Positions 9,026-32,288 of a stretch of DNA of 32,288 nt are shown here, piece after piece (the stretch's first letter is position 1; each line of letters starts with the position of its first letter). The stretch is taken from the IMG/VR virus record IMGVR_UViG_3300047471_000424, positions 1 through 32,288 of that record; one strand, 5' to 3'. Made by a program: the position numbers and the translations under genes. This DNA comes from a virus. A model generated the notes under the pieces. The model saw nothing but the letters and a program-made list of their open reading frames with translations. It was not told where the DNA came from and made no database searches.

Positions 9026-9234
9026 GGTTTCTCCTCTCGGTGGTGGGCGATGAGCCAGTCGTTGAAGTCGGCGTGCCGCTCGAGCCACGCGCCGAGCTCG
9101 ACGAGGCCGGCGGCGACGTAGGCGTCGATGATCACCTGGTTCTGCTCGGGGTACTGGACGACACCGATGTGGCAGGTCGAGCACAGTCCTTGCGTCCGGC
9201 CGATCTTGGTGCCGCAGTAGGGGCACACCTTCAT
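9022..9234 (-). CDS. zinc-ribbon protein in the lysis cluster
   Basis: Starting at ATG 9234 (ATGA with the collagen-like gene), the 70-aa protein begins MKVCPYCGTKIGRTQGLCSTC, a compact four-Cys zinc knuckle. Helices follow (NQVIIDAYVAAGLVELGAWLERH) with a WLIAHHREEKP tail. An ATG seven codons upstream exists but would extend into the previous gene. It has no membrane helix, so it is cytoplasmic. Its role among lysis genes is unknown; it may regulate or be a passenger. Confidence 0.65.
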   Translation of the reverse strand: MKVCPYCGTKIGRTQGLCSTCHIGVVQYPEQNQVIIDAYVAAGLVELGAWLERHADFNDWLIAHHREEKP

Positions 9235-10724: not shown

Positions 10725-10735
10725 GAGCGCGCCTC

Positions 10736-11344
10736 CTACTTTTTGACGGGGGTAAGTGCCATCCACCGTTTCCCGAAGTTGGCGGTGCTGGCGGTGTCGA
10801 CCTTGTACTTCGCGGTCAACGTGACGGCGGTCAGCGTTTTGCGTCTGATCCGGCCGACGCTCCAGTACCAGGCCGTCCCGCCGGGGTTCGTCGCGATGAT
10901 CTGGTCGGCGTCGACCGCGCCTGTGCCGCCGATGTCGTAGCTCATATACGCGATGTTCCCGCTCGCGGGGTCGATCGCCGCACCGATCTCGACGTCGTAG
11001 TCGCCGGCGAACGGGACCGCGATCGACGGTCCCGCGGTCGCCAATGCGGCGTAGGTGGTGCTGCTCGTCGACTCCCCGGAGGTCTCGACGGTGTTGAAGA
11101 GCGGCGGGCCGCCGACGAACGCCCAGTAGCTCGACGCGTTCCGCCATTTGAAGTTCCAGTACACCCCGTTCGTGCTGTCGGCGACGTACGTGTAGGGCTG
11201 CCCGTCAACAGGTGAGCCGGGGAACGATGTGCCGACGCCGTCTGCGCCGCCGAGCATCAGCATGTTGTCGCGGACGTTCGTGTTCAGCTCGGCGGCGGTC
11301 ACGATCTCACCGACGACCCAGGTGCGGGGAGCGGACCAGGCCAC
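10736..11344 (-). CDS. tail fibre-like protein with C1q/TNF-like C-terminus
   Basis: The 202-aa protein starts at GTG 11344, sharing one base with the upstream stop (TAGTG). It opens with AWSAPRTWVVGEIVTAAELN and TNVRDNML, a motif widespread at the N-terminus of actinophage tail fibre and tip proteins. The remainder is beta-rich (FAGDYDVEIGAAID, NIAYMSYDIGG, KTLTAVTLTAKYKV), consistent with a trimeric beta-sandwich receptor-binding head. It is the last virion gene before the endolysin. The fold of the C-terminal half is inferred. Confidence 0.65.
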   Translation of the reverse strand: MAWSAPRTWVVGEIVTAAELNTNVRDNMLMLGGADGVGTSFPGSPVDGQPYTYVADSTNGVYWNFKWRNASSYWAFVGGPPLFNTVETSGESTSSTTYAALATAGPSIAVPFAGDYDVEIGAAIDPASGNIAYMSYDIGGTGAVDADQIIATNPGGTAWYWSVGRIRRKTLTAVTLTAKYKVDTASTANFGKRWMALTPVKK

Positions 11345-17148: not shown

Positions 17149-18090
17149 TTAGAAGGCTCCGGTGTTGCGGCGGTAGGAGTTGATCTTCCGGATCGACGAC
17201 AACGGAAGGTCGAAGCTGGCGGTGAAGTCCGGCGAGAGGTTCGACCCGTCCTGGAGGTTCAGGCTCAAGGTTGGGACGTCGCGGCGCAACCATGCGCTGA
17301 CGGCGTCGCTGCACGCCTCGTTGACCGCGGTCGGGACCGACGGGAACCCCCAGGTGCCGGTGATGTCGAGGAGCGCGTACCCGAACTGGATCAGTGTCGA
17401 AGAGACGATGCTGAGGAAACTCGAGAGCCTGAGCGACGTGTAGACGCCCTCGTCGGTCTGGGCGGGGGAGAGCGCGTAGTGCGTGTTGGCGGTCAGTGTG
17501 GTCGGTGAGCTCGTCTCGGGGTTGAGGCTGACGAGGGTGGCGGTCTGGAGGTCGTAGGGTGCGAGTGGGACGACGGTGCCGCGGCGAGGGTCGATCTGGA
17601 TGCGGCGGGTCGCGCCGACCGTGACCGGCGCGAACTCTCTTTCGGCCCAGTTGCAGATCATCTGTGACGCGACAGGGATCAGCGACAGGATCAGCTCGTC
17701 GCGGCTCGTCTCGGCCGCCGGGAGCTCCAGGCTTTCACGGACGTCGGCGAGGGAGCACAGGTTGCCGGTCTGGAGGCCGTGCTCGCGGACGAGGATCTCG
17801 AACTCGTCGGAGTCCTGCGTCCTCGACGTCGGGAGGGTGACGTGCCACCAAGCGACGTACTCGCCGGCGGTGTCGACGTCGGCGGCGGCCCAGTCGTACC
17901 GGACGGTCCCAGCGACCGCGGACACGATCGTGGCGGTCGTGTCGACCTTCAACGGATCCGATGCTTTCGCGGTCGCGAGTCGCATCTGCAATTTCACCGA
18001 CGAGGAGGTGAGGTCGAACGCGACGCCGTTCACCTTGATCGTGTCGGTGAGGCTCGGTGATGTGTTCGTTTTCCAGAGTTGTACGGTCAT
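17149..18090 (-). CDS. fusion: BppU-like N-domain plus gp6-like head-tail connector
   Basis: Residues 1 to about 105 (SLTDTIKVNGVAFDLTSSSV, VRYDWAAADVDTAGEYVAWW, SDEFEILVREHG) look like the Ig-like N-terminal domain of BppU-type baseplate proteins. Residues about 112-313 contain SLADVRESLELPAAETSRDE, LILSLIPVASQMICNWAERE and AVNEACSDAVSAWLRRD, the pattern of phage gp6/YqbG-like head-tail connectors. The start at ATG 18090 overlaps the upstream stop (TAATG). The connector part should form the ring under the portal; the added domain could decorate the neck. Domain assignment is by motif. Confidence 0.65.
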   Translation of the reverse strand: MTVQLWKTNTSPSLTDTIKVNGVAFDLTSSSVKLQMRLATAKASDPLKVDTTATIVSAVAGTVRYDWAAADVDTAGEYVAWWHVTLPTSRTQDSDEFEILVREHGLQTGNLCSLADVRESLELPAAETSRDELILSLIPVASQMICNWAEREFAPVTVGATRRIQIDPRRGTVVPLAPYDLQTATLVSLNPETSSPTTLTANTHYALSPAQTDEGVYTSLRLSSFLSIVSSTLIQFGYALLDITGTWGFPSVPTAVNEACSDAVSAWLRRDVPTLSLNLQDGSNLSPDFTASFDLPLSSIRKINSYRRNTGAF

Positions 18091-19415
18091 TAGTTGAGGT
18101 GAGGGTTAGGGGTGTCGAACGCGCCGGTGTCGGGGCTGCTCGAGGAGCCACCGACCGGGACGGGGTTGTCGAACCCGCCGGCCGAGGGGTCTGTGCGGGA
18201 CTCGCCGGACGGGTCTGTGTTGAACCGGCTCGTGATGATCGCGCCCAACAGGCCGGGGGTGAGGCGTGCGCCGGACAGCAGGATCGGCTGCGGGTAGAGG
18301 CGACGTCGTCCGTCGTCGCCGATGATGACGACCGGCGGCGGCGGGACCGTGACCGGCGGGAAGAACCGTGCGAGCTGGCTGCCGCCGAGAACGACCGGGT
18401 CGAGAACCTGCGGCTTCCTGCGGGCGGGCTCCGCGACGACCGGGGCCGGCGGTGCGACAACCGGTAGCCCGAGCGCGGCGAGGATCCCGTTGAGAACGAC
18501 GGGGTCGGGAACCCGGGTGGGGCGGCGGGACGGCTCGACCGACTGGGACGCCGGCGGCGCGGTGAACAGGAGGAAGCTCGCGAGGACACCGCTGAGTGAG
18601 AGCGGGTCGGTGGTGGTGCGGCGGCGCTCGTTGAGCGGAACGAAGAACGGCGGCGGCGGCGGCCCCGGTGCTGGTGGCTGGACGGATGCGGCGAGGCCGT
18701 TGAGGACAGTCGACGGGAGCGGCAGCCACCGGGTGCGCTGGTCGTTCCGGTCGATGCTCGTCGGCAGCGGCGGGGTGTCACCGACAGCGGCGGGGCCTGG
18801 GTCGACGAATGCGTGTTCCGCGAACGCCTGGAGCGGCCCTGTGGCGCGCGGCCGCTCGTGGGCGGGCGAGACTGTCGGGGCCGGCGGGGCGGCGGCCGGG
18901 GCGGTTGTGAGCGCGAGGAGGCCGTTGAGCGCGACCGGGGTGAGCGGCAGCACCCGCGGCCGTGCAGGCTCGGCGACGACCGGCTCGGGCGGGTAGACCG
19001 CCGGGTCTTGCGAGAGGTCGAAGATTTCGTAGCCGGGTACACCCGGCCGGGATGAGGGCCGGAACCGTCCGCGCTCGTCGAGCGGCACAACAACCGGGAC
19101 GGGCGGGACGATGACGGTCGGGGCTTGAGGAGCGAGCGCACCCGACAGCAGGATCGCGTCTAGCGGCCTGTAGCGGACGCGCTGGTCGAGCCGGTCGAGG
19201 CTGAACGGCTCCGGTGGCGGGACGAACGGGACGTTCGCGACGAACCCGTGCTGGACGATCGGCTGGAGCGGCGGCGTCTTCCGCTGCCGGTCATCGGTGG
19301 CCGGGGCGTCAACGACGAGGATCTGGCCGGGGAGCACACCGTTCGCCGGGACGTTCCCGAGGAACCCGTGGCTCGAGAACGGCTGGATCGGTTGGTTGCG
19401 GCCTTCGCGACTCAT
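18090..19415 (-). CDS. proline-rich repeat protein in the head/neck module
   Basis: The 441-aa protein is built from about eleven imperfect repeats of 33-40 residues. Each begins with a basic triplet (RQR, RVR, RGR, RPR, RTR, RRR) and continues roughly P-L-x-P-x-x-L-N-G-x-L-A, then a PPAPxxVP stretch ending in an acidic or Ala residue. Clear units include PDPVVLNGILAALGLPVVAP and LPLTPVALNGLLALTTAPAA. The last part (about 395-441) is a Ser/Gly-rich tail with PSGESRTDPSAGGFDNP. It overlaps the neighbouring gene by ATGA. The regular spacing suggests an elongated scaffold or fibre. No family recognised. Confidence 0.75.
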   Translation of the reverse strand: MSREGRNQPIQPFSSHGFLGNVPANGVLPGQILVVDAPATDDRQRKTPPLQPIVQHGFVANVPFVPPPEPFSLDRLDQRVRYRPLDAILLSGALAPQAPTVIVPPVPVVVPLDERGRFRPSSRPGVPGYEIFDLSQDPAVYPPEPVVAEPARPRVLPLTPVALNGLLALTTAPAAAPPAPTVSPAHERPRATGPLQAFAEHAFVDPGPAAVGDTPPLPTSIDRNDQRTRWLPLPSTVLNGLAASVQPPAPGPPPPPFFVPLNERRRTTTDPLSLSGVLASFLLFTAPPASQSVEPSRRPTRVPDPVVLNGILAALGLPVVAPPAPVVAEPARRKPQVLDPVVLGGSQLARFFPPVTVPPPPVVIIGDDGRRRLYPQPILLSGARLTPGLLGAIITSRFNTDPSGESRTDPSAGGFDNPVPVGGSSSSPDTGAFDTPNPHLN

Positions 19416-20110
19416 CGGCTCGTCGACTGCATGACGGCGGTGTCAACGTAGAGCGGGAGCGGCGGGATAGTGACAGTCGCTACGGCCTTGTAGGTGACGA
19501 CACCGTTCAGGCTGTTCACCATCGAACTGTCCGTCCCATCGGCGTTCTGGGTTCCTGTGGCCGAGAGGATGCGGTACGAGAACAAACCGTCCTGGGTGGA
19601 CGGGGCCGTCTGCTCTCCGGTTGTGAAGTTCGTGTAGGAGGCGTTCTTCGTGATCGTCCCAGCCGGGGTGTTCGTGGAATACACAGCGAGAGCAAGTTCG
19701 TCAGCGGTTGCGGTAGCGGCGGTGGTGCCGGTCGGGAGCGAGGTGACGTTTGAGCCGGTGCTCGTCGCCTGCACATCGACCGCCGAGTAGTTCCCGTTGA
19801 ACTCCTCCAACCAGTAGGCGTAGCCGACAGTAGTGGGCATCGTCACCGTCACCACGCTCGACGTGGTCAGCCCCGTCGCCTGATAGGACGCCCACACGGA
19901 GATACAGCGTCCGCCTGAGGTGAGGAGCATGTCGCCCGTCCACACGTTCGTGCCGTCGCTGACAGCCGTCGCTCCCGCCGCGCCGACGACGAGGAAGCAG
20001 AGGTAGATGGTGTTCCCGGCAGTGCAGTTCGAAGCGGGGCTGAACGTGATCGTCGTTCCCGCCGAGGTGCCCGTCCCGGACTTGCGTTCGCCGTTGAGTG
20101 TTACGGGCAT
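19412..20110 (-). CDS. beta-rich virion protein, putative head fibre or decoration
   Basis: The 232-aa protein is almost all beta strand, with few charged residues and many Thr, Ser, Gly and Ala. It begins TLNGERKSGTGTSAGTTITF and includes GYAYWLEEFNGNYSAVDVQAT and ELALAVYSTNTPAGTI. Such sequences are common in phage surface proteins with jelly-roll or Ig-like folds. The ATG at 20110 abuts the upstream TAG. Its location between the capsid and connector genes favours a head-surface role, but a tail fibre is possible. Confidence 0.55.
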   Translation of the reverse strand: MPVTLNGERKSGTGTSAGTTITFSPASNCTAGNTIYLCFLVVGAAGATAVSDGTNVWTGDMLLTSGGRCISVWASYQATGLTTSSVVTVTMPTTVGYAYWLEEFNGNYSAVDVQATSTGSNVTSLPTGTTAATATADELALAVYSTNTPAGTITKNASYTNFTTGEQTAPSTQDGLFSYRILSATGTQNADGTDSSMVNSLNGVVTYKAVATVTIPPLPLYVDTAVMQSTSR

Positions 20111-20524
20111 CTAGAGCGTCCCTGTCTCGAGCGGTTCTGTCGCCTCGATGCTGCCCGACCCCGCGAGCTCGACGCGCTGCCCGTTGATCTCCCACATCGG
20201 CGTCTCGGTCGGATGGGTGTTCACCCACTCGACGCGGAGCATTTCCCCGGTGGCGTAGTCCTGGACGGTCGAGAGCTTGATCAGCCCGTCGTATTGCTCG
20301 GACAGCGGCGCGACGAACTCGGTCCTGGGTGGCGGCCCGATCCCGAGGCTGTCGAAGTAATGGAGCGCCTCGAGACCAACGATCCAGTCCTCGTCCGTGA
20401 AAGCAACGTACGCTCCCGCCCCGCCGTGACCGCAATCGGCACCTTCGACCCCGTCGAGCGTGCCGAGACACGGATCGGGTGTGTCCTCGACCAGCTCCTT
20501 CCCGCAGACCGCGCACGCGCTCAT
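20111..20524 (-). CDS. Cys-rich N-terminus hypothetical protein, 137 aa
   Basis: The protein opens MSACAVCGKELVEDTPDPCLG and has another Cys in GADCGHGG (about 31-35), enough for a zinc site. The rest is an alpha/beta segment (DWIVGLEALHYFDSLGI) followed by beta strands (MLRVEWVNTHPTETPMWEIN). It is coupled by ATGA to the beta-propeller-like gene. The function is unknown; it may assist folding or attachment of the neighbouring surface proteins. Confidence 0.55.
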   Translation of the reverse strand: MSACAVCGKELVEDTPDPCLGTLDGVEGADCGHGGAGAYVAFTDEDWIVGLEALHYFDSLGIGPPPRTEFVAPLSEQYDGLIKLSTVQDYATGEMLRVEWVNTHPTETPMWEINGQRVELAGSGSIEATEPLETGTL

Positions 20525-21879
20525 CGGGTGGCGAACGCGAGGTCGGCGACGACCGGACGGGGCGCAACATCGAGGGTGCTGAGCAGGATGGTTTCTCCGT
20601 CAGCGAACGGCTGCGGCGAGGAAGCGTCCGTGCCGACCACACCAATGGAGCCCCACCCGGTGTTGTCGACGAACGCGCTCGTGATCGTGAACTTCGCCCA
20701 GTGGGACGGGTCACCGGTCGCCGACAACCGCAGCTGGCTCCCGACGAGGGCGGTCAGCGCGGCGGTCTGGTTCGCGCCGAAGAAGTCGGTCTCCGACACC
20801 GCGAGGGTCGTCGCCTCAGGGAGGGTGTAGTAGGAGAGGTAGTGCGCGATCGGGGCGGACGGGGTGACGGTCGTCGTGTACCAGAGGGCGTTCGGGAGCT
20901 TGATCAGCTGCCCGCCGGCCGTGCCGATCGCGATGGTCGCGACGGTGGCGGGGGTGGCGGTCCGGATCGCGATGATCGTCCCGGACTTCGTCCCGAGCCA
21001 GAGGAAGACGCCGTCGTGGACAGCGGACCCTTCGTTCGCCAATGCCGCCCCGGTATCGACGGTGGTTTCGGTTGTGAGCTCGAGGTTGTAGCGGTGGACA
21101 CGGTGGGTGCCGTTCGCCTCGTTCGGCTGCCACAGGTACCCGGCCGCGAGGATCAGGTCGTTCCCCGGCAGCGTGTTCGTCGTGTCGAGCAGCGACACCG
21201 ACGAGAGGCTGTCGGGTGCTTTGACGATCCAGGAGCGTCCGGCGGCGTACACGTACCCGTTGTTGACGACGATCGCGATCCCGCGGAACGAGTTGGCCGC
21301 GCCGCCGGAGCGATTCGGCACCTGGATCGACGCGATCGTCGCCCCGTCCGAGAGCCGGAACTTGTACAGCCAGGCGTTCTCGGTGAACGAGTCCGAGACG
21401 AGGTACAGGTAGGTGCCGTCCGAGGCGAGGCCGCTGTTGACGTTGATGTCGTTGCCGGTGGTCCCGATCAGGACGTTGGTGAGGAACGCGGTCTCGGCCA
21501 TCGTTGTCGGGTTGACCTTGCTGATGTTGACGGCACGGGCCCCGTCGCCGATGTCGGAGTAGATCGGCCCGGTGTAGTACAACCCGGTCTGCGGGACGTA
21601 GAGGCCGTTCGCGCTGATGTTGGTGAGGCTCAGCGCGGTGGTCGTGAACGTGCCCGGTGCGGTCGGGTCGGCCCACTTGTAGAGGTTCCCCGACGAGTCG
21701 TTCGCCATCAGCAGCAGCGGCCCGGTGGGGCTAATGATCGCTTTGCCGTCGAGGACGGTGTTCGCCATCGTCCCTGTCGCTGTCGCCGCCAATGTCGGGC
21801 CGAGGTGGAGCTTCCCGGACGCCGGGGCGGACGCCGGGTTGCGGGTGGTCGCGTCGAACGTGTACTTGATCTGGATCAC
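20521..21879 (-). CDS. beta-propeller-like virion protein
   Basis: The 452-aa protein shows repeated short blades: strand-turn-strand units such as LLLMANDSSGNLYKWADP, GLASDGTYLYLVSD, LYKFRLSDGATIASIQVP, YVYAAGRSWIVKAP, LAAGYLWQPNEANGTHRVHR and FLWLGTKSGTIIAIR. About six or seven such units span residues about 50-350, followed by a separate beta domain (LYYTLPEATT onward). This pattern fits a beta-propeller plus a C-terminal domain, suggesting receptor or glycan binding. The GTG at 21879 abuts the upstream TAG. It lies among head genes; blade count and ligand are inference. Confidence 0.65.
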   Translation of the reverse strand: MIQIKYTFDATTRNPASAPASGKLHLGPTLAATATGTMANTVLDGKAIISPTGPLLLMANDSSGNLYKWADPTAPGTFTTTALSLTNISANGLYVPQTGLYYTGPIYSDIGDGARAVNISKVNPTTMAETAFLTNVLIGTTGNDINVNSGLASDGTYLYLVSDSFTENAWLYKFRLSDGATIASIQVPNRSGGAANSFRGIAIVVNNGYVYAAGRSWIVKAPDSLSSVSLLDTTNTLPGNDLILAAGYLWQPNEANGTHRVHRYNLELTTETTVDTGAALANEGSAVHDGVFLWLGTKSGTIIAIRTATPATVATIAIGTAGGQLIKLPNALWYTTTVTPSAPIAHYLSYYTLPEATTLAVSETDFFGANQTAALTALVGSQLRLSATGDPSHWAKFTITSAFVDNTGWGSIGVVGTDASSPQPFADGETILLSTLDVAPRPVVADLAFATR

Positions 21880-22914: not shown

Positions 22915-24291
22915 CTAGAACGTCGGGGCGGCGAGCCCGAGGCCCGAGATGATGCTGATCGACTTCGGCTGCCTACCGCTCGCGAAAGCGGAGTAGGCGT
23001 ACAGCTGGAGCCGAACGGTGAGGGTGTTCGACAGGACCTGCGGCATCACCCTGGCGACGATCTCGCTCTCCCACAGGTACATGTCGGACCCGCGGATCAC
23101 GTAGATCTCGTCCTGGTTCGTGGTGCCGCCGTCCGTGGTGCGGACGTTGGCGTCGAGGAGGACGTTGAGGCCCGCGAAGTTGTTCGTGAACCCCTGGTCC
23201 TGCGTACCACTGGCCTGGTACAGGTTGCCCTGCTGGAACAGCGGGAACGTCGACGACAGGTTCGACGCGAGGAACGCCGCCCGGCGCGGGTGCATGATGA
23301 TCGTGTCGGCCGGCGCGAACCGGTTCGACGCGATCAGCTGGATCGCGTTGTAGATCGGCGGGACCGTCTGAGCGGCGGTCGCGCCACCCGTCGAGAACGA
23401 CACGGTGTTCGGGCCGGACACGGCACGGATGCCGAGATGCTGGCCGTTCGCCCCGGTGCCGTTCAGCAACTGGCTGTCGAGCTGCCGGTCGTAGTCGGCC
23501 CTAAGGTCGGTGAAGATGACCTGGTCGATACCCGGTGACGAGTGGTCGATCAGCTGCTGCGACACGTCCTGCTGACCGGCGATCGTACGAACGTCGACGG
23601 TGAGGAGCGCCTCGACGATGTCCGTCGAGGACACGGTCGTCGAGTTTTCCGTGATGATCATCCCGGTCGTGGTACCGGTCGTGATCCTCGGGATCGTGAT
23701 GTGCATCCCCGGATCCGAGTCGAACTGCATCTTCGGGAGCGAGTCCGCGAACGGCCGCCCAGCGCGGGGCTGGAGCGCGTACAGCTCGCCGAGGTACTCA
23801 GGCGGCACGAAGTTACCGCCGGCCGTGACCGTCGTCGAGATCGCCCTCTTCTCCGCGGTCATCCTGGTGTGCCGGTTGAGCCGGTCACCGGCACCGCCGT
23901 CACCCCGTGTGGAGTTGATCAGGTCGAGGAAGAACGACGACCTGGTGGCGGGGCTGTAGATCGCCGGTTCGCGGCCGACACGGATCCGCATCGCCTTGCC
24001 GGCGTCGTCGCCGCTGTCGTCGCCGCTGTCGTCGCCGTCGCCGTCTTCGTCGCGGTTGCTTTGAGCGAACTGGCGGTTCGCGGCGGCGATCGCCTCGAGC
24101 CGGTCGACCTGCTCGGCCCACCGCTTCGACTCAGCTTCGGCCCCGAGGAACAGCGTCCGGTAGGAGTTCATTTCCTCCTCGGTCGCGTCCTCCGGAAGCG
24201 CCTGGATCTTCTCGTCCCATTCCTTCATCTTCAGCACGGCGTCGCCCTGCCGCTGGCGGGCCTCGTCGAGCTGGCTCATCGGCTTGCTCAT
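22915..24291 (-). CDS. major capsid protein, HK97 fold, with delta domain
   Basis: The 458-aa protein has an N-terminal coiled-coil scaffold region (about 1-75, LDEARQRQGDAVLKMKEWDE to WAEQVDRLEAIAAANRQ) and an acidic linker (RDEDGDGDDSGDDSGDD). The mature capsid domain follows, with AISTTVTAGGNFVPPEYLGE, PRAGRPFADSLPKM and PADTIIMHPRRAAFLASN. The N-terminal region is probably removed by the protease encoded just upstream. The ATG at 24291 overlaps the protease stop (ATGA). This is the main shell protein. The cleavage site is not certain but probably lies between about residues 100 and 150. Confidence 0.92.
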   Translation of the reverse strand: MSKPMSQLDEARQRQGDAVLKMKEWDEKIQALPEDATEEEMNSYRTLFLGAEAESKRWAEQVDRLEAIAAANRQFAQSNRDEDGDGDDSGDDSGDDAGKAMRIRVGREPAIYSPATRSSFFLDLINSTRGDGGAGDRLNRHTRMTAEKRAISTTVTAGGNFVPPEYLGELYALQPRAGRPFADSLPKMQFDSDPGMHITIPRITTGTTTGMIITENSTTVSSTDIVEALLTVDVRTIAGQQDVSQQLIDHSSPGIDQVIFTDLRADYDRQLDSQLLNGTGANGQHLGIRAVSGPNTVSFSTGGATAAQTVPPIYNAIQLIASNRFAPADTIIMHPRRAAFLASNLSSTFPLFQQGNLYQASGTQDQGFTNNFAGLNVLLDANVRTTDGGTTNQDEIYVIRGSDMYLWESEIVARVMPQVLSNTLTVRLQLYAYSAFASGRQPKSISIISGLGLAAPTF

Positions 24292-25079
24292 GGTGTGTCC
24301 TCCGGTGTGGTGAGTCGGAACTGACGGCGCTTGACCGCCCGCAGCCGCTCCTCCTCGACCTCGACCGAAGCCGACGTCAAAGCTCGGAGCTCGTTGAGCG
24401 CGACGGTGCGCGTTTCCGCATCACCAGCCGGGGATTCTTCTTCCGGCTCGATGGCGGGGTCGGCCTCTACCTCTGGTGCCGGTAGACGACCAAGATTTAT
24501 GGCGTCCTCGAGTTGGGAACGCATATCGACGTGAGTTGCTCTGTAGGCCGGATAGGTGACGACGCTGGTGTCGAAGAGCTCGTCGGCACCGTCGGCGCGC
24601 AACGTCCTGACGACCGCGCCGTTGTCCGCGACGGCCCAGTCGTCGCCGGCTTCGGTGAGCGTGAACGCGAAGCTCATCTGGTCGATGTCGCCCCTTTGCA
24701 TCGACGTCCTCAGGTCTTTGACCCACCCGATCGTCTTGTCGACGGTCGCGAACACATGGAGGCCGCGGGTGTCCTCGCGCAGCTCGAGCGACCCTGATGC
24801 GGTCCGTGCGAGCACGAAGTTGGGGTCGTGGTTGAAGAGAAGGCGCACGTCGGGCTTCTTCCGGAGCGCGGCCCGGAAGAACCCGGGCTCGATCAGTTCC
24901 CGGAAGCCGCCGAGGTCTTCGGAGAGGCTGTTGAAGATGGCGGCGTGGCCGCGCAACGTGGTCTCGGTCTTCTTCGCGGCGTCGCCGGAGTCGCGCCATT
25001 CGACTTCGACGAGCGGCACGACGATCTCGCGACGGGTTTCTGGCAGGCCGAGGCCCGCCTCGGTGGCGGTGGAAGTCAA
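24288..25079 (-). CDS. HK97-type prohead protease (S78/U35 family)
   Basis: The 263-aa protein carries the prohead protease signature. GHAAIFNSLSEDLGGFRELI is followed by VRLLFNHDPNFVLART with catalytic His84, then DIDQMSFAFT with the catalytic Ser136, and FDTSVVTYPAY. The C-terminal part (about 195-263) is acidic and Arg-rich, as in self-processed tails. It cleaves the capsid delta domain during maturation. The start is TTG at 25079, preceded by AAGGAGG at 8 nt; no better start lies nearby. Confidence 0.9.
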   Translation of the reverse strand: MTSTATEAGLGLPETRREIVVPLVEVEWRDSGDAAKKTETTLRGHAAIFNSLSEDLGGFRELIEPGFFRAALRKKPDVRLLFNHDPNFVLARTASGSLELREDTRGLHVFATVDKTIGWVKDLRTSMQRGDIDQMSFAFTLTEAGDDWAVADNGAVVRTLRADGADELFDTSVVTYPAYRATHVDMRSQLEDAINLGRLPAPEVEADPAIEPEEESPAGDAETRTVALNELRALTSASVEVEEERLRAVKRRQFRLTTPEDTP

Positions 25080-25092
25080 AGGTCAGTCCTCC

Positions 25093-26403
25093 TTAGCGGC
25101 TGCCGTTTGCGGTCGGAACTAGGCTTTTCGGGACAGGCACGGTGCCCGACACGGGGTTCGCGGGCGGGGCGGTGCCGTTCGTGGTGGCGGTCGGGTTGGG
25201 TGCGCCACCGACAGGGGTGATCTGCGGCACCTTCCCCGGCTCCTTCGTCCAATCGGACGGGACGGGCGGCAGCGGGCTGTCGCCGTGCTCGGCGCGGATC
25301 TCGTCGACGAGCTTGGTGCCGTCCTGGATCTGCATATGCTCGACGTTCGCGCTCGTGAGGGCGTCGGTGCGGAGCAGATCGTCGGTCACGAACTCCGGGT
25401 AGACGCTGTCGGTGCCGAACATGTCGGGATCACAGGCGAACGTCTGCTCGATCCTCCGCAACCTTGGAAGGATCGTGAAGTTCAGCAACCGGAGCCCGAG
25501 CTGTTCGGTCGCCTCGGGCTTCGTGAGCGGGTGCCCGAGCATTTCGGGGGCGATCCCCCAGATCCGTGCGACCTGCTCGACGCCGTAGCGTTGCGACTCG
25601 ATGAACTGGGCGTCCTGAAGATTGACACCGGTCGCGACCCACTCCGCGCCGTTCGCCAGCAAGGCTGGCCGGTGGGCGTTGCCGAGGCCGCGGTGGGTGG
25701 CTTCCCACACGTCGAGGATCTCCATCGCCCGCGACGTTTTCACGTTCCCCGGGATCTTCAAAGCGCCGCCGGGTGAGGCGTCGTTCGAGAAGAACCGGCC
25801 CTCGAACTCCTCCAGTGCGACGGCGTTCCCGAGCGCCTGCCGGTGCAGCGTCAACGGGGAATATCCGGAGACTTTCCCGGGGATCGTCCAGCCGCGGAAA
25901 TGAAGGATCTCGGACGGGCTATAGGTGCTCGTCTCACCCTCAACCGTGACCTGGAACACCTTCTCTTTCGTGCGCGGGTCGCGTTTGATGCTCGCGTAGT
26001 TCATGTCCAACGGCACCAACGCGACGACACGCCGGTTCAGGAGCCCTTTCACCTTCAGCACGAGTGAGTTCCCGAACGTCTCCGGACCCGTCGCGATGTC
26101 TGAGAGAAGATCGAATTGGGATTGGTCGGGTGACGGGTTGTCGAGGAGCTTGTCCTGCCATGAGCTCTCCGCGGCGCGCTTGTCGGCCCCGGTGCCGGTG
26201 AAAACGCACAGGTCCATGCTCGCGATCACCAAGGCGATCAGCCGCACGGCCGAGCCGACCGCCGAGAGGCCCAAGGCTTTCTCGGTGGTGTAGCCGGCAC
26301 CTGAGTAGACGTTCGCGCCCCACCCGGGCATCGGGATCGCGGACGAGCCCCACTCGACGGTCCGCATCTCGACGTTCCCGCGGTTCCTCACGCTCACGAT
26401 CAC
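25093..26403 (-). CDS. portal protein, HK97 family
   Basis: The 436-aa protein uses GTG 26403, which overlaps the upstream TGA (GTGA). Visible features are SAVGSAVRLIALVIASMDLC, PSPDQSQFDLLSDIATGPETF, GNSLVLKVKG, EILHFRGWTIPG, NAVALEEFEGRFFSND and SQRYGVEQVARIWGIAPEMLG, the standard order of the HK97/SPP1-like portal family. It forms the dodecameric DNA gate at one capsid vertex. The C-terminus is Pro/Thr-rich. A longer in-frame start upstream would overlap the previous gene extensively. Confidence 0.92.
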   Translation of the reverse strand: MIVSVRNRGNVEMRTVEWGSSAIPMPGWGANVYSGAGYTTEKALGLSAVGSAVRLIALVIASMDLCVFTGTGADKRAAESSWQDKLLDNPSPDQSQFDLLSDIATGPETFGNSLVLKVKGLLNRRVVALVPLDMNYASIKRDPRTKEKVFQVTVEGETSTYSPSEILHFRGWTIPGKVSGYSPLTLHRQALGNAVALEEFEGRFFSNDASPGGALKIPGNVKTSRAMEILDVWEATHRGLGNAHRPALLANGAEWVATGVNLQDAQFIESQRYGVEQVARIWGIAPEMLGHPLTKPEATEQLGLRLLNFTILPRLRRIEQTFACDPDMFGTDSVYPEFVTDDLLRTDALTSANVEHMQIQDGTKLVDEIRAEHGDSPLPPVPSDWTKEPGKVPQITPVGGAPNPTATTNGTAPPANPVSGTVPVPKSLVPTANGSR

Positions 26404-26618
26404 TGGAGCCGCTCCATGAACCACACCCGCGAGCACGGCACCTCAACAGCGTTGTCGAGCGAATATGACTGGCCGCCGTCCTGGAGCAGCTTCGGCGTGA
26501 GGAGCAGGTAGTGGTCGCCGACCTTCCCGTCGAGGACACCTTCGAAGTCGCTCAGCTCAACACCGGGCATCGGTAGGAAATGGACACGGACGCGCCGGCG
26601 GCGGTTGAACCATGTCAA
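26400..26618 (-). CDS. small beta-rich protein before the portal, 72 aa
   Basis: The TTG at 26618 forms a TTGA overlap with the glycosyltransferase stop, and its own TGA overlaps the portal start (GTGA). After a very basic start (FNRRRRVRVHFLPM) the chain looks like a small beta barrel (GVELSDFEGVLDGKVGDHYLLL, VEVPCSRVWFMERLQ). It may be a head-module accessory protein, or it may belong functionally to the glycan block upstream. No family recognised. Confidence 0.6.
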   Translation of the reverse strand: MTWFNRRRRVRVHFLPMPGVELSDFEGVLDGKVGDHYLLLTPKLLQDGGQSYSLDNAVEVPCSRVWFMERLQ

Positions 26619-27376
26619 GCGACCCTCACCTGGTGGCCGTCGACGTGCTCGACGTGGGTCGCCCACACCCGTTCGATCCCGAGTTGGTCGCGGCGCTGGT
26701 TGAACTCCTCGGCGCGCTCGTTCCGGGTGCGGATCCGGTGGTTGTGGCGATGCTCGATCCGCAGATCGTTGAAGTCGGCCATCTCGGCTTCCTGGTGCAT
26801 GTCCTTCCGGCCGTAGAGGATCTGCGTGTCGGTGACGTAGAAGTTGTGTGCGCCCTCGACGCGGAGGCCGGGGACGGCGCGGATCAGGAACCGCATGTCG
26901 GATTGGGAGCCTTCGCTGTCGAACTCGAGGATCGCCGCCAATGGTGCGCCGGTGCCCTGCAAGTGCGAGCGCCACCACAGGGTGACGCCGGCGACGTCCT
27001 CCTTGGTCTGCTCGAGCCGCGCCCGGAAGTCCTCCGGAACGTTCGTGACGACCTCGTCCGCGTCGATCCGGAGGAACCAGTCGTCCGGTGTCGCGATCGT
27101 CATCCCGAGCTGCACCAGATGGTTGCGTTTCTCGACCTCGTTCCCCATCCACACCGTGTCGGGTGCGTGGATCGTCACGCCGATCCCGGCCGCGTACGCG
27201 GCCTGGGTGATGACGTCATGCTGCTCGATCCCGGAGTGCGGTCGGGCCCCGGGGAACAGGAAGTAGCCGCCGTCGCTGGCGACGAGGTGGTCGCAGACCT
27301 TCGCGAGCGCGGTGACGTTCGCGGCGAGCATCGCGCTGGTTTCGTCGTAGAAGCACAGGAGGCCGATGACCTTCAC
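26615..27376 (-). CDS. GT-A-type glycosyltransferase (GT2-like)
   Basis: The 253-aa protein (GTG 27376, GTGA overlap) begins KVIGLLCFYDETSAMLAANV, a Rossmann-like nucleotide-sugar start. The metal-binding motif is FLRIDADEVV (Asp105, Asp107, Glu108). Later segments include DFRARLEQTKEDVAGVTLWW and DMHQEAEMADFNDLRIEHRH. This is the layout of family-2-like enzymes that move a sugar from a nucleotide donor. Acceptor and sugar are unknown. It is one of three predicted transferases in the block between terminase and portal. Confidence 0.72.
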   Translation of the reverse strand: MKVIGLLCFYDETSAMLAANVTALAKVCDHLVASDGGYFLFPGARPHSGIEQHDVITQAAYAAGIGVTIHAPDTVWMGNEVEKRNHLVQLGMTIATPDDWFLRIDADEVVTNVPEDFRARLEQTKEDVAGVTLWWRSHLQGTGAPLAAILEFDSEGSQSDMRFLIRAVPGLRVEGAHNFYVTDTQILYGRKDMHQEAEMADFNDLRIEHRHNHRIRTRNERAEEFNQRRDQLGIERVWATHVEHVDGHQVRVA

Positions 27377-28275
27377 GCCGCCACCTCGTCGAGCTCGCGC
27401 ACCCATGCGAGCGTTCGTTCCATCCCTTCGGCGAGCTCGACCTCCGGCCGCCAGCCGATCTCGCGCAGCTTCTCCGTCGCCAGCCGCTTCACGACGGTCT
27501 GACGTGGCGGCGCAGGGATCAGCTCGATGAGGCTCTCAGGGGCTCCTGTGAGCGCGCAGGCCATCTCGGCGACTCGTTGCATCGGGACGCCGGCGTCGTC
27601 GCGGCCGATGTTCCACACCCCGCCGGGCTGCTCCAAGGTGAGTCGCATGGCGCGGACGGCGTCACCGACCCAGCACCACGAGCGCTCCGACCCCTGGTGG
27701 ACGGGGATCGGTTGGCGGTTGTCTGCCTGCCACAGCATGTTCACGATCGCCGCGCGCCCTCTTCCATGAGGTAGCCCGGGTCCGTACGGCATCGAGGGTC
27801 GCCAGATCGTCAGATCATCCGGGGCGTAGAGGCGGCACGCTTCCTCACCCCAGCGTTTCGAGAGGCCGTAGGCGTTGTGCGGGAGATGGCTGACCGTCAG
27901 CGCCTGCTCCAATGTCCACTTGTAGAGGTCGTCTTCGGCGCAGACGGTGTCGCCGCGGTCGCCGTACACCTCGCTCGTCGACGCATACACCATCCGGACC
28001 CCGGCTTGCCCGCACGCCTGCGCGACGAGAGCGGTCATCCCGGCGTTGTCGCCGACGGTCTCCAACACGTCGTCTTCGCCGAACAACCGGCCGACCTTCG
28101 CCGCCAAATGAACGAGCACGTCGGGTTTGTGCGCCTGGAGGAGCCTCGAGGCGACGTCCTGGCCGCGCAAATCGCCGTGGTCGCGGTCGACACCGATCAC
28201 GTCGTGGTGCGGTTCGAGCTCGGTGACCAAGTGTCCGCCGATGAAGCCAGCGGCACCTGTCACCATGATTTTCAA
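27373..28275 (-). CDS. NAD-dependent sugar epimerase/dehydratase (extended SDR)
   Basis: The 300-aa enzyme starts at TTG 28275, overlapping the preceding TGA (TTGA). It has the NAD fingerprint TGAAGFIGG (6-14), VLVHLAAKVG, the active-site STSEVYG strand (about 99-105) and the catalytic YGLSK (Tyr136, Lys140). IWRPSMPYGPG and WNIGRDDAG follow in the substrate half. It converts a nucleotide sugar, for example by 4-epimerisation, dehydration or reduction; which sugar cannot be told. It supplies the donor for neighbouring transferases, by inference. All catalytic residues appear present. Confidence 0.85.
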   Translation of the reverse strand: MKIMVTGAAGFIGGHLVTELEPHHDVIGVDRDHGDLRGQDVASRLLQAHKPDVLVHLAAKVGRLFGEDDVLETVGDNAGMTALVAQACGQAGVRMVYASTSEVYGDRGDTVCAEDDLYKWTLEQALTVSHLPHNAYGLSKRWGEEACRLYAPDDLTIWRPSMPYGPGLPHGRGRAAIVNMLWQADNRQPIPVHQGSERSWCWVGDAVRAMRLTLEQPGGVWNIGRDDAGVPMQRVAEMACALTGAPESLIELIPAPPRQTVVKRLATEKLREIGWRPEVELAEGMERTLAWVRELDEVAA

Positions 28276-29210
28276 GCCGCGACTGGCTCCCCGTCGAACA
28301 GCTCGCACTTCGGGAAGTGCTGGAGGACCCGTTGGTTGTCGTACCAGCCGCCACAGGTGCAGCGGATCCCGATCGGTGGCCCCTCCGGTTTCGGGACCAT
28401 CATGTGCGCGTACTTTGCGGGGTCGGCCTGGACGCAGGGTGGCATCTGATCCAGGCCGACCCACTCCGACGGGCGGTAGTCGCGCCCATAAATGTCACGG
28501 CCGGTGTCGATCGACCCTTGGATCCAGGCGTCGGTGAGGAACATGTTCGGGTCGCCCTTCTTCTCGTCCGGGACGAGCTGCTCGTAGAACCGGTCCGCGA
28601 TGCTCGTCATCTTCAGCCGGAGGAACTCGACGTTTCCCTGGTAGGCGAGATGCCAGCCGCTGACCGCACCTGTGTCGCCGCCCGCCCAGCCGCCAACCAA
28701 TATGTCGTGGACGTTCCGTCCGGGCCAGAACGCCGCCGCCGGATGCACGCTCGCGGTCGAGCCGATCGCGCACGCCCTGTCCAGCCAGCGCCAGTTGAGG
28801 GTGTAGACGAACATATCCATCAGGATCCTCTTGGGTGGCTGGTCCCAGAGGTTCTCGAGCTCCCACGGGAACGGAACCTCGTCCAGATCGCTAACGAGAA
28901 CCGTGTCTCCGGGCTCGAGCAGCGGATACAGTGCGCGTTCGATCGCGTTCCGCTGGAACCGTTCCCGGATCCAGTCGGCCTCGACACCGTCACCACCGGG
29001 CATGTCCTCCACGATCACGTGCTCGATCTTCGGCAGCCACTTCGCATAACGGGCCTTGTTCTCCTCGAAGTAGAGGGGCTTCGCCTGCCCGCGCTGCGTC
29101 ACCGTGGCCTCCGCGAAGACGAACCGGTCGACAACTGGGGCGAGTTCGGTGAGCCGGATCTCGATCACGTCGAGCTCGTTGTTGATCGTCGAGACCGCCC
29201 ACCGGGTCAC
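28272..29210 (-). CDS. glycosyltransferase family 17-like protein
   Basis: The 312-aa protein (GTG 29210, GTGA overlap) has the GT17 pattern. VVDRFVFAEATVTQRGQAK is followed by PLYFEENKARYAKWLPKIEH, RERFQRNAIERAL and GDTVLVSDLDEVPFPWELEN with the metal-binding Asp108/Asp110/Glu111. The C-terminus adds IRCTCGGWYDNQRVLQHF and a further Cys, a possible small zinc site. Known GT17 enzymes add N-acetylglucosamine to mannose; here the acceptor is unknown. It sits in the glycan block. Confidence 0.8.
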   Translation of the reverse strand: MTRWAVSTINNELDVIEIRLTELAPVVDRFVFAEATVTQRGQAKPLYFEENKARYAKWLPKIEHVIVEDMPGGDGVEADWIRERFQRNAIERALYPLLEPGDTVLVSDLDEVPFPWELENLWDQPPKRILMDMFVYTLNWRWLDRACAIGSTASVHPAAAFWPGRNVHDILVGGWAGGDTGAVSGWHLAYQGNVEFLRLKMTSIADRFYEQLVPDEKKGDPNMFLTDAWIQGSIDTGRDIYGRDYRPSEWVGLDQMPPCVQADPAKYAHMMVPKPEGPPIGIRCTCGGWYDNQRVLQHFPKCELFDGEPVAA

Positions 29211-29854
29211 GCGGCCACCTCTTCCTGCCAGCCGTACTCCATCGCCATCCGCTTGTACGGGAACGGGACGCCGCCGCGAGCCATCATCCGGTCGGCGAGG
29301 AGCGGCAGATCCTTCCAGCGCGAGGTGTGCAGACGGCCTTCCGGGGCGGCCCCGTGGCCGAGGCGGTAGCTCTCGGTGAACGGGATCGGGATCTCGAGCA
29401 AATCTGCGAGGTAGGTGACCCAGTCGTCGGATCCGTAGTGGATCGGGAGCAGCCACTCATCCGTCGCGACGCGCTCCCGTGTCAGGAACGGCACCAGGAT
29501 GTTCCGGACGGTGCGGTCGTCATGCGTGAACGCGCCGGCGTACATCGTCGAGTCCTCAAGCCAGTCACCGCCGACCTCTTTCGCGGTGAGGACGTTCGCG
29601 CCGGGGATCCCGCCCTCGTCAGCCACCTCGATCGCGGCCTGCCACCAGCCCGGGAGCGGGAGGAGGTCGTCGGCGGTGAAGTGGAGGTAGTCGCCTGTGG
29701 CTTCCTGCGCGCCAAGGATCCAGGCTTCGCCACAGGAGTCCTGGTCGCGGATGATGATGATCTCGCAGCCGGGACAGGTGGCCTCGTAGGCGGCGACGCA
29801 CTCGTCGAGCCACCGTGCGCGCACGTCGATGGTGGGGATGATGACGCTGATCAC
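29207..29854 (-). CDS. short GT-A glycosyltransferase (GT2-like)
   Basis: The 215-aa protein (GTG 29854, GTGA overlap) begins MISVIIPTIDVRARWLDECV and has GDYLHFTADDLLPLPGWWQA, where Asp62-Asp63 is the likely metal site. The last third includes HYGSDDWVTYLADLLEIP and SYRLGHGAAPEGR. It is shorter than usual GT2 enzymes but contains the full nucleotide-sugar half. It probably transfers a sugar to a protein, lipid or nucleic-acid acceptor; the acceptor is not evident. Confidence 0.75.
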   Translation of the reverse strand: MISVIIPTIDVRARWLDECVAAYEATCPGCEIIIIRDQDSCGEAWILGAQEATGDYLHFTADDLLPLPGWWQAAIEVADEGGIPGANVLTAKEVGGDWLEDSTMYAGAFTHDDRTVRNILVPFLTRERVATDEWLLPIHYGSDDWVTYLADLLEIPIPFTESYRLGHGAAPEGRLHTSRWKDLPLLADRMMARGGVPFPYKRMAMEYGWQEEVAA

Positions 29855-30858
29855 GCCGCCACCAGCTCACGCACCCGGCTGCGGTCAAGGACGGGAGGCC
29901 GGTCCATTCCGCGGACCCAGCGCAAACCGTCCGGTAGCGGGTTCATGGTCATGGTGCCGCCGGCGGGGCCATGGACGTACAGGTCGGCGATATTGAACCC
30001 CGCCGCGGCGTAGAACTCCGGTGCGGTGGTGAAGAACCGGCCGATGTTGATCTCGGTCGGGTTCGGGACACCGTCCTGGTCGCGGCACATGTCGATCCCG
30101 TACAGCCCGTGCGGTTTTTCGTCGACGAGCTGGACGGCGCGGCACGCGACCTGGTCCGCCATCAGATCCGAGCTGGTGACGCCGACACCCGTCGACCCCG
30201 ACACGCCTGTTGCGCTCGAGCCGGCGTTCGCCCAGGCTTCCCTGGTGCGTTGCTGCGACACGACGAGGTCGCCCTGGTGGTAGAGCTGCTGCACCGTCAC
30301 CGTGTCGGCGGTCAATGCGCGCGCATAGGTGAACTTGGTGTCGCGATGCTGGTGCGCCCACGCCCGTAGGAGCCTCTGGTTCGCCGTTCGGAGCGACTTC
30401 TGCCCGCCGGCACCGACACGGGGCCGCATCCACACGTCGCCCTCCATCACGTCATGGTCGAGCGACGTGAACGGCACCCTGAGTCCGCCGTCGCGCCACA
30501 GCTTGTACGACACCCACTTGTCACGGCAGATCTCGATCGTGGTCTGCGACGGAAGCCATGTTTTCGCGTAGGAGAGGTGCATTACGCGGCGGATCCGCCC
30601 GAGCGCCTCCACTTCGGCGTCGTTCTGGGCGTGGACGAAGTCGATGCGGCTCGTTCTGACGAGCCGGTCGACGTCCTGCGACCACCGATTGAAATCGCTG
30701 GCTGGCGCAATCAGCTGGTTGTCGTCGCACTCCGAGAGCAGCAGATCGGTGTCGGAGCAGTTCGCCCCGATCAACTCGTAGCCGCCGTCGGCCATCCTGA
30801 GCGCCCTGGCGAACCCGTTCGCTGCCGCACCGCCCGCGCCGAGCACAAGGATTTTCAC
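29851..30858 (-). CDS. ATP-grasp ligase, carbamoyl-phosphate-synthase-like
   Basis: The 335-aa protein has an N-terminal Rossmann-like pre-ATP-grasp part (KILVLGAGGAAANGFARALR, then VHAQNDAEVEALGRIRRVM). The ATP-grasp core follows with EICRDKWVSYKLW (Lys104), VWMRPRVGAGGQKSL and the metal-binding GLYGIDMCRDQDGV...PTEINIGRFF (Asp256, Glu269, Asn271). ATP-grasp enzymes join a carboxylate to an amine or similar group through an acyl-phosphate. Members with this N-terminus occur in polysaccharide loci. GTG 30858 overlaps the upstream stop (GTGA); an ATG 4 codons earlier is an alternative. Substrate unknown. Confidence 0.82.
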   Translation of the reverse strand: MKILVLGAGGAAANGFARALRMADGGYELIGANCSDTDLLLSECDDNQLIAPASDFNRWSQDVDRLVRTSRIDFVHAQNDAEVEALGRIRRVMHLSYAKTWLPSQTTIEICRDKWVSYKLWRDGGLRVPFTSLDHDVMEGDVWMRPRVGAGGQKSLRTANQRLLRAWAHQHRDTKFTYARALTADTVTVQQLYHQGDLVVSQQRTREAWANAGSSATGVSGSTGVGVTSSDLMADQVACRAVQLVDEKPHGLYGIDMCRDQDGVPNPTEINIGRFFTTAPEFYAAAGFNIADLYVHGPAGGTMTMNPLPDGLRWVRGMDRPPVLDRSRVRELVAA

Positions 30859-31148
30859 CGGATCACCCATGAGTCTTCGAGGAGCTCTTTGCCGGGGCCG
30901 AGCATCGCGACGCACTCGTGGGCGGCCTTCACGACTGCGCGGCAGCGCCGCCACATCTCCAGGAGCTCGGCCTCCCCGGACTCGGGTGCGGTAATCCCGT
31001 GCTCCTCGAGCAGGGCGCGGTAGCGGAGGAGCCTGACCATCAGCTTCGCGATCTCGAGTTGGTGCTCGGCCTGCAACGCGATGAGCGCCTCGACCGGGAC
31101 CGTGGTCTCGACCGGGACCGCCGTGGTTTCGGTGATGGTTGTGGTCAC
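30855..31148 (-). CDS. helical hypothetical protein after the terminase, 97 aa
   Basis: GTG 31148 overlaps the terminase stop (GTGA). After a Thr/Val-rich start (TTTITETTAVPVETTVPVE) the protein is a long helix-rich segment (ALIALQAEHQLEIAKLMVRL, YRALLEEHGI, GEAELLEMWRRCRAVVKAAH). It may form a coiled coil. No catalytic motif is present. It precedes the ATP-grasp gene. Function unknown. Confidence 0.6.
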   Translation of the reverse strand: MTTTITETTAVPVETTVPVEALIALQAEHQLEIAKLMVRLLRYRALLEEHGITAPESGEAELLEMWRRCRAVVKAAHECVAMLGPGKELLEDSWVIR

Positions 31149-32288
31149 GCCGCGACCGCCGTGCGCGGGTCGAACACGTAGTCGGTGCCTTCGTCGCCGT
31201 GAACCGACGCTGAGAAGAGCGCGAGTGTGGCTGCGACGAGCGGTGAGATGTCGACCGACGAGTTCTTCCGCGACCACGCCCACGCATCACCCAACGGCCG
31301 GCGGGTCGCACCCTTGACGGCGGCGAGAAGCTCCTCGGTGCCGAGATGACGCAATCCTTGCTCTTCGACGAGGTCCATCAGGAACCCGCAAGCCTGTGCG
31401 TGCTCCCGCGTATTCACCGTCTCGACCGCCACCTCGAGTTCCTCGAGCTGGTGCAGAACGGAGCCGGCGGGGCCGGTCGCGTCGCACACCACAGCGGCGA
31501 CGTCGTGCCTGGCGACGAGCTCGGCGAGCCTGCCAGGCAGCCAGCGAGTACCACGGCGGCGGTCGACGATCTCGACGTGGAAGAGCCCGTCGGTGCGCCA
31601 CCCTGCCGCCGCGATCGACCCTGAGGACCGGTCGGGTGCGACGTCGAACGCCAAACTCACCGGGTCGAGCAGCCCCGACCCTGGGTCGGTGAGCGCGACC
31701 CACCGGTCGAGGTCGATCACGTGCGCCGGCGACCCGTCGGTGTTCGGGTAGTCGCCGCCGCCGAGCAGCTCAACGATGAAACCGCGGGGTGAGATCGCCC
31801 TTCGCTCCCATTCCATGTGCTCTTCGGTCACCCTGCCGCGGCCGATCGCGAAGTTCACTTGCCGCCACAATGCGTGATCGAGTGCCATCTCTTCGGTGAC
31901 GTCGTCGGGGTGATTCACGTCGATCGACCACTCGAAATAGGCGAGGGCGGGGTCGTTCCGGGCGATTCCGCGCTCCCGTACGCGCGCCCACACCACCCCG
32001 TGCTCGTGGATCTCCTGGTCAACCGCTGATCCGGCGTACCAGAGCTGCGGGCCACGCGGCGCTTTCGACGCGCGGATCGTCGGCATCGACGAGGAGTGCG
32101 CCGCCTCCGAAATGATCATCGCCTCGTCCAAAACCAACAGATCGACGCCGGCGAACCCTCTCATCCCGCTCTTCGTCCGGGTTTTGAACTCGATCCGGCG
32201 GCCATCCTGAAGCTCGATCGACTCCTCACCATGCGAGTACCGGTACCCGACGATCCGGCCCGTCTCGACGTTCCGCTTCACCTCCGCG
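31145..32288 (-). CDS. terL: terminase large subunit (partial, N-terminus outside the window)
   Basis: The reading frame is open to the right edge, so the N-terminal Walker A part is missing. Present are the Walker B strand (VDLLVLDEAMIISE), the coupling region (PQLWYAGSAVDQE) and the RNase H-like nuclease domain with its acidic residues (PVSLAFDVAPDRSSGS, VAAVVCDATGPAGSV, and SSVDISPLVAATLALF). It is the motor and nuclease that package and cut phage DNA. The C-terminus ends DPRTAVAA and is followed by the glycan block. Truncation is by the window, not a mutation. Confidence 0.9.
   Translation of the reverse strand, partial: AEVKRNVETGRIVGYRYSHGEESIELQDGRRIEFKTRTKSGMRGFAGVDLLVLDEAMIISEAAHSSSMPTIRASKAPRGPQLWYAGSAVDQEIHEHGVVWARVRERGIARNDPALAYFEWSIDVNHPDDVTEEMALDHALWRQVNFAIGRGRVTEEHMEWERRAISPRGFIVELLGGGDYPNTDGSPAHVIDLDRWVALTDPGSGLLDPVSLAFDVAPDRSSGSIAAAGWRTDGLFHVEIVDRRRGTRWLPGRLAELVARHDVAAVVCDATGPAGSVLHQLEELEVAVETVNTREHAQACGFLMDLVEEQGLRHLGTEELLAAVKGATRRPLGDAWAWSRKNSSVDISPLVAATLALFSASVHGDEGTDYVFDPRTAVAA

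Follow-up and report, generated by a model that had tools for sequence, protein, structure and literature searches.

A probable virion-glycosylation cassette lies between the terminase and portal genes of a phage head operon

Introduction

Glycosylation of phage virions has been shown recently, in three mycobacteriophages: according to PMC12363180, which cites Freeman 2023, these are Che8, Corndog and Myrna, whose virion proteins carry glycans, and glycosylation of the capsid requires gp110 in Che8 and gp38 in Corndog. The Che8/Corndog system of Freeman et al. 2023 is treated here as it is presented in PMC12363180, PMC12619734 and PMC11600133. In this study we describe a block of seven genes in the virus record IMGVR_UViG_3300047471_000424, the whole IMG/VR contig of which (32,288 bases) is referred to below as the window. 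The block lies between the terminase gene terL and the portal gene and probably represents, as judged from its genes and their relatives, a late-operon virion-glycosylation cassette acting on a protein target. In this cassette a glycosyltransferase of the family phrog_7009 (here GTb) would serve as the anchoring enzyme, and a short-chain dehydrogenase/reductase (SDR), two further glycosyltransferases (GT2 and GT17) and an ATP-grasp ligase would serve as decorators.

Like the Che8 and Corndog systems, the window has a multi-gene cassette of glycosyltransferases together with a modifying enzyme, and GT2, GT17, GTb and SDR stand in one operon with 4 bp overlaps. However, the Che8 cassette is located at the genome end, whereas that of the window sits inside the head operon. 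The window lacks homologues of Che8 gp108-110 (gp110 belongs to phrog_854), its anchor candidate being phrog_7009 and its decorators SDR, GT2, GT17 and ATP-grasp. In L025, one of the viral loci and contigs compared here (labelled with L-numbers), a gp110 homologue co-occurs with a GT2-GT17-SDR set of the window type. Courthouse (Omegavirus, cluster J), like the window, carries a GTb homologue (gp21, 40% identity) in its head-gene region (gp15-gp21), with Che8-type methyltransferase and galactosyltransferase genes near it, and its portal, protease and capsid are homologous to those of the window. Its cassette, however, is situated between the capsid and connector genes instead of between terL and portal, and ATP-grasp, GT17 and SDR were not found in Courthouse. 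The cassette of the window would belong to the known class of phage virion-glycosylation systems; new are the anchor family, the exchangeable contents, the ATP-grasp and the place inside the head operon.

Results

The sequence-only reading of this DNA had placed five enzyme genes, flanked by two small proteins, between terL and portal, and our searches agreed with it on both counts. Seven overlapping genes on the minus strand fill the interval between terL (phrog_9) and portal (PF04860), in the order small helical protein, ATP-grasp, GT2, GT17, SDR, GTb and small beta-rich protein, and portal is followed by the protease and then the capsid gene (Table 1). Starting at terL, the successive overlaps measure 4, 16, 4, 4, 4, 4 and 4 bp, and a gap of 8 bp precedes portal. 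No promoter-like sites were detected across the block, and no membrane segments were predicted in any of its seven proteins. The GC content of the block (0.63-0.68) and that at third codon positions (GC3, 0.82-0.92) are like those of the head genes, and the enzyme motifs are intact. This implies that the block is neither a recent nor a decayed insert, so that the picture of a recently acquired cargo with unrelated neighbours and decayed active sites, named by the earlier reading as the case against a glycosylation role, does not describe it.

The same gene order, which that reading had proposed to look for in related phages, was recovered in L003 and L004. In these two independent and divergent contigs, whose genes are 40-69% identical to those of the window, the order is terL-GT2-small protein-GT17-SDR-GTb-small beta protein-portal-protease-capsid, without ATP-grasp; the recurrence of this order implies that the arrangement in the window is not due to chance. 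The genes of the relatives were called with a home-made caller based on GC3, which gave mis-starts and spurious reverse open reading frames, and the argument uses homology-supported genes only. The terL of L004 (L004:2-1426) did not match that of the window. Cassette and portal of the two phages are nevertheless related, which indicates an exchange of terL at the border of the cassette. L054, the closest relative by head genes (80% identity in capsid, 73% in portal), begins inside SDR and continues with SDR-GTb-beta protein-portal.

The GTb family was carried by 77 loci, which include duplicates and near-identical phages and are not independent cases, and in 70 of them a head gene was found at most 8 kb away; the other seven were short contigs or had head genes too divergent for our queries. 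At least 49 isolate phage records, all from mycobacterial hosts, matched GTb, as did dozens of metagenomic phages. When 85k genomes were scanned with a GTb pattern, only four matches were obtained, three in phage head regions and one on a 3.4 kb contig, and as judged from these scans GTb is a phage-restricted family. One match, that of L089 (record G012:101739-102404), contains two in-frame TGA codons and may be decayed or recoded.

Across 13 divergent phages the distances between GTb proteins were strongly correlated with those between portals (Mantel r 0.83, p 0.0001), and in the five phages that also carry SDR the correlation reached r 0.99. It was only 0.34 among pairs whose portals are less than 60% identical, which means that close pairs supply part of the signal. 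The identity of SDR, in contrast, was 60-69% whether the head genes were 80% or 40% identical (one close pair reached 87%), and 57-61% in comparison to L025. These results indicate that GTb travels with the head genes, whereas the decorators move separately.

The DxD motif of GTb was invariant in all 13 homologues. Its AlphaFold2 (AF2) model had a pLDDT of 85, and the five best Foldseek matches were the SunS/ThuS glycocin S-glycosyltransferases, at a TM-score of 0.54 and about 12% identity; no relation to them was detectable in sequence. SunS and ThuS glycosylate the side chain of a peptide directly. In addition, the GTb profile weakly matched GmaR (E 0.006). The sequence-only reading had counted two GT2-like transferases in the block; one of these is indeed a GT2 enzyme (PF00535), but the second, without any Pfam match, turned out to be this member of phrog_7009.

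The connection to Che8 came from the genes that accompany GTb. Courthouse gp15 matched the C-terminal half of Che8 gp108 (E 3e-56), and Courthouse gp17 matched gp109 (E 1e-99). Among 25 records searched for Che8 gp110, it was present in Che8 and L025 only and missing from the other 23, including the window and Courthouse; among 19 records searched for GTb, it was found neither in Che8 and L025 nor in three control phages that have only a distant GT17. The sharing of decorators between phages with swapped anchors (GTb in Courthouse, gp110 in Che8 and L025) suggests that GTb is likely the functional counterpart of gp110. We also considered GTb, GT2a and GT17 as direct homologues of Che8 gp108-110 and rejected this after sequence comparison.

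The slot between terL and GTb differed in content from one relative to another. It contained ATP-grasp and a methyltransferase in L098 and L101, a GFO/IDH/MocA oxidoreductase and a hexapeptide acyltransferase in L100, a hexapeptide acyltransferase and a ThiG-like protein in L104, and a hexapeptide gene with two unknown genes in L112. ATP-grasp and a methyltransferase also precede GTb in L110, the contig of which begins there. Hexapeptide or methyltransferase genes were present in L115 and L109 as well, with GTb downstream of portal (in L109 upstream of the protease gene), and in the Omega-like phages GTb is downstream of the capsid gene. L025 (1545-14956) has GT, GT2, GT2a, GT17 and SDR between a terL and a portal from families other than those of the window, the gp110 homologue following portal, and has no GTb; on this gene order it is the same slot in another phage lineage. 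No recognised window-type head genes were located near the GT17 homologues in most of L005-L053. As to the L104 slot (L104:2255-3659), its ThiG-like protein matched PF05690 at 4e-31. ThiG-like enzymes are able to make thiosugars (BexX), and the virion sugar of L104 possibly contains sulfur.

The ATP-grasp identity given by the sequence-only reading was borne out by an NCBIfam match of the PRK12767 type (6.3e-18; Pfam was weak) and by a confidently predicted ATP-grasp fold (AF2 model, pLDDT 80.8, pTM 0.83). A search of PDB sequences with the single protein returned nothing meaningful. With Foldseek, 584 PDB matches were recorded for the model at E ≤ 0.001 (top E 1.5e-16), its fold being closest to the L-amino acid ligases RizA and 3vot, PylC and CarB. 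D260, E273 and N275, which we take to be the acidic/Asn metal triad of ATP-grasp ligases, were invariant in seven of seven phage homologues; this triad and the fold are common to the window protein and to PRK12767-type ATP-grasp enzymes, RizA, 3vot and PylC. The central ATP-binding loop of ATP-grasp enzymes usually carries a Lys, the place of which is taken by Arg149 in all seven phage homologues. Despite this Arg, the window protein is, by its predicted fold and metal residues, a member of the ATP-grasp superfamily. It differs from RizA, 3vot and PylC also in its low identity to them (11-14%) and in its glycosyltransferase partners in phage head operons.

The ATP-grasp family could be reached only with a profile built from L098, L101 and L110; neither tblastn against 50,697 phage records nor a single-sequence pattern scan of IMG/VR gave a match. 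The profile scan yielded 11 viral loci. ATP-grasp is directly beside GTb in L116, L118-L121 and L123 (L118-L121 and L123 apparently being close relatives of each other), a methyltransferase separates the two in L098, L101 and L110, and the contigs of L117 and L124 end before the neighbour of ATP-grasp could show. In cells, a sample of 296 genomes of the phylum to which Fodinicola belongs included four with strong homologues (E below 1e-60). Two of the four adjoin GFO/IDH-like genes, and one of these also has a hexapeptide-transferase-like neighbour and lies near a flagellin-like gene; the labels flagellin, aminotransferase-like and HAD-like of cellular neighbours were read from the sequence and not obtained by family search. 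This neighbourhood suggests that bacterial loci for amino-sugar or flagellar glycans were the source from which the phage ATP-grasp was recruited.

The pairing of ATP-grasp with GT17, which the sequence-only reading had regarded as unusual, occurred in none of the examined loci other than the window. All other close GT2-GT17-SDR sets lack ATP-grasp, and the other phage ATP-grasps are paired with GTb, with or without the methyltransferase, or stand where the contig ends. The pairing in the window therefore looks like the meeting of two separately moving modules. The only literature that we found joining ATP-grasp, phage glycosyltransferases and capsids was a survey of jumbo phages, whose ATP-grasps ligate peptides and RNA and stand in other contexts; no prior description of the combination was found in the literature searched.

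The matches of GT2, GT17 and SDR were all above the Pfam cut-offs. GT2 has a TADD motif that is invariant in three phages. In GT17 both the DLDE motif and a C-terminal CxC...HxxxC are invariant, and identity to the counterparts in L003 and L004 was 60-61%; no match was obtained when the GT17 profile was used to search PDB sequences. The conserved CxC...HxxxC of the GT17 C-terminus (window 28272-28480) is zinc-knuckle-like, and the separate small protein between GT2 and GT17 in L003 and L004 bears a CPxCG motif. TGxxGFIG and YxxxK, invariant in three phages, fit the extended class of SDR, and the window protein was 61% identical to its counterpart in the unrelated phage L025. The start of SDR was corrected to TTG at 28275 (MKIMVTGAAGFIG), giving a product of 300 aa; this start fits those of the relatives and brings back the overlap of 4 bp.

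Table 1. Genes of the block and of its borders, listed from terL towards the capsid gene.
Feature	Position	Strand	Evidence and remarks
Terminase large subunit, terL	31145..32281	-	phrog_9 1.3e-33; 49% identity to L003 terL; 5' end at or beyond contig end; upstream border
Small helical protein, 97 aa	30855..31148	-	overlaps terL by 4 bp; tblastn relative (31%) in L109
ATP-grasp ligase, 339 aa	29851..30870	-	NCBIfam PRK12767-like 6.3e-18; Pfam weak (0.03)
GT2-family glycosyltransferase, 215 aa	29207..29854	-	PF00535 6e-7
GT17-like glycosyltransferase, 312 aa	28272..29210	-	PF04724 1.5e-19, 70.7 bits against a cut-off of 26
Extended SDR nucleotide-sugar epimerase/dehydratase/reductase, 300 aa	27373..28275	-	PF01370 5.1e-36; phrog_540 8e-47
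GTb glycosyltransferase, 253 aa	26615..27376	-	phrog_7009 1.1e-51; no Pfam match; proposed protein-anchoring transferase
Small beta-rich protein, 72 aa	26400..26618	-	between GTb and portal; conserved there
Portal protein	25093..26391	-	PF04860 1.4e-62; downstream border
Head maturation protease	24288..25079	-	36% to Courthouse annotated head maturation protease gp13
HK97-fold major capsid protein, candidate glycan acceptor	22915..24291	-	33% to Courthouse major head protein gp14

Among the small proteins, the helical one had no family match in Pfam, PHROG and NCBIfam searches, and its relative in L109 adjoins a methyltransferase-GTb pair. The beta-rich protein was 75% identical in L054 and 32-37% identical in L003, L004, L098, L100 and L104. 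The capsid profile matched HK97 gp5 structures at 3e-7. Three large genes (452, 232 and 441 aa; window 18090-21879, minus strand) between capsid and the head-tail adaptor gave no Pfam or PHROG match and possibly encode surface or decoration proteins, which would be candidate glycan acceptors. A collagen-repeat tail fibre-like protein is encoded at 9231-9944 (minus strand) beside the Amidase_2 endolysin gene (10137-11147). With genes for an integrase, a tape measure protein, a head-tail adaptor, Amidase_2 and ERF, the window phage, which comes from soil, is probably a temperate siphovirus. Its host is likely actinobacterial, since the genomes carrying GTb-family head regions belong to Actinomycetota (two named genomes and one metagenome-assembled genome) and the 49 phage records are mycobacterial.

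Discussion

In the mechanism that we infer, from the target of GTb and the order of the steps to the ATP-grasp product and the purpose, SDR would tailor a nucleotide sugar of the host, and GTb, a cytoplasmic GT-A enzyme, would start the glycan by linking a sugar to a side chain in one of the virion proteins. The most likely acceptor would be the major capsid protein or else a different protein of the head or tail. This first sugar would be extended by GT2 and GT17, ATP-grasp would add an acyl or aminoacyl group to a sugar through an amide or ester bond, and the surface of the virion could thereby be masked or varied. The sequence-only reading had the block build and attach a sugar to either a virion protein or DNA. 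The tie to virion genes and the intact active sites are in keeping with such a block, and for its target a protein of the virion is now preferred to DNA, on three grounds: GTb is inherited together with portal, it is similar to enzymes that glycosylate peptides and proteins, and it replaces gp110 beside Che8-type decorators.

Several observations weigh against this interpretation. Our literature search found no report of a glycan for any phrog_7009 phage, the window phage included. The likeness of GTb to SunS is modest (TM-score 0.54, 12% identity), and some score would be expected from any enzyme of the GT-A type. GTb has no significant similarity to the Che8 transferases, and the proposed replacement of gp110 by GTb as anchor is derived from the partner genes. 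Since Arg149 takes the place of the usual Lys in all members of the ATP-grasp family, their chemistry may differ. Moreover, no aminotransferase accompanies ATP-grasp in the window, and an amino-sugar acceptor would therefore have to be supplied by the host.

Glycosyltransferases that modify phage DNA are well established (cited in PMC12619734), and the enzymes of the block could instead attach sugars to a hypermodified base. The window does encode, at 2696-3980 (minus strand), a DpdA-like queuine tRNA-ribosyltransferase (phrog_887, 2e-50) beside a Vut_1/YhhQ-like transporter, so that the phage may modify its DNA. However, some 22 kb separate this gene from the block, and co-occurrence of the gene with the cassette was rejected as it is absent in 19 other cassette-bearing records (2 complete phage genomes among them); the pair probably represents a 7-deazaguanine DNA modification separate from the block. 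No genes for a glycosylatable base were found among the approximately 25 window genes scanned, on a contig that may be incomplete. Together with the co-divergence of GTb and portal and the partnership of GTb relatives with Che8-type capsid decorators, this makes glycosylation of DNA a very unlikely function of the block. Alternatively, the genes could be expressed in the lysogen and alter a surface glycan of the host, blocking superinfection or changing adsorption, as known for the transferases of serotype-converting phages. The integrase of this probably temperate phage and the occurrence of cellular ATP-grasp relatives in apparent surface or flagellar glycan loci would be compatible with lysogenic conversion, but the 4 bp overlaps lock the genes into the terL-portal-capsid operon, where no promoter-like site was detected, none of the seven proteins (0/7) has a predicted membrane segment, and GTb stays in the same virion region of the large Omega-like phages. 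We therefore consider lysogenic conversion unlikely and, like DNA modification, less likely than virion glycosylation.

The block could also be a head-operon cargo ("moron") with no role in the virion, retained because insertions are tolerated at this place. The exchange of decorator genes among phages is what cargo would display; nevertheless, the invariant active-site residues, the tight overlaps, the neighbour-like GC3 and the co-inheritance of GTb with portal across 13 divergent phages render this explanation extremely unlikely.

Returning to virion glycosylation, we put forward with more reserve, as a possibility that we would not yet bet on, that the cassette is a combinatorial "virion serotype" locus. 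Here an anchor inherited with the capsid (of the GTb or gp110 family) would be combined with a swappable sugar-tailoring slot drawn from bacterial surface-glycan loci, and ATP-grasp would attach an amino acid or a similar acid to the virion sugar as a cap, a chemistry that to our knowledge has not been described on phage particles. Our results point to phrog_7009 as an unrecognised second family of anchoring enzymes, accompanied by a modular slot for exchanged sugar chemistry. If this is true, sequence would predict which phages bear sugar coats and in which of them the sugars differ, which would bear on recognition by the immune system and on the means by which phages vary their surface.

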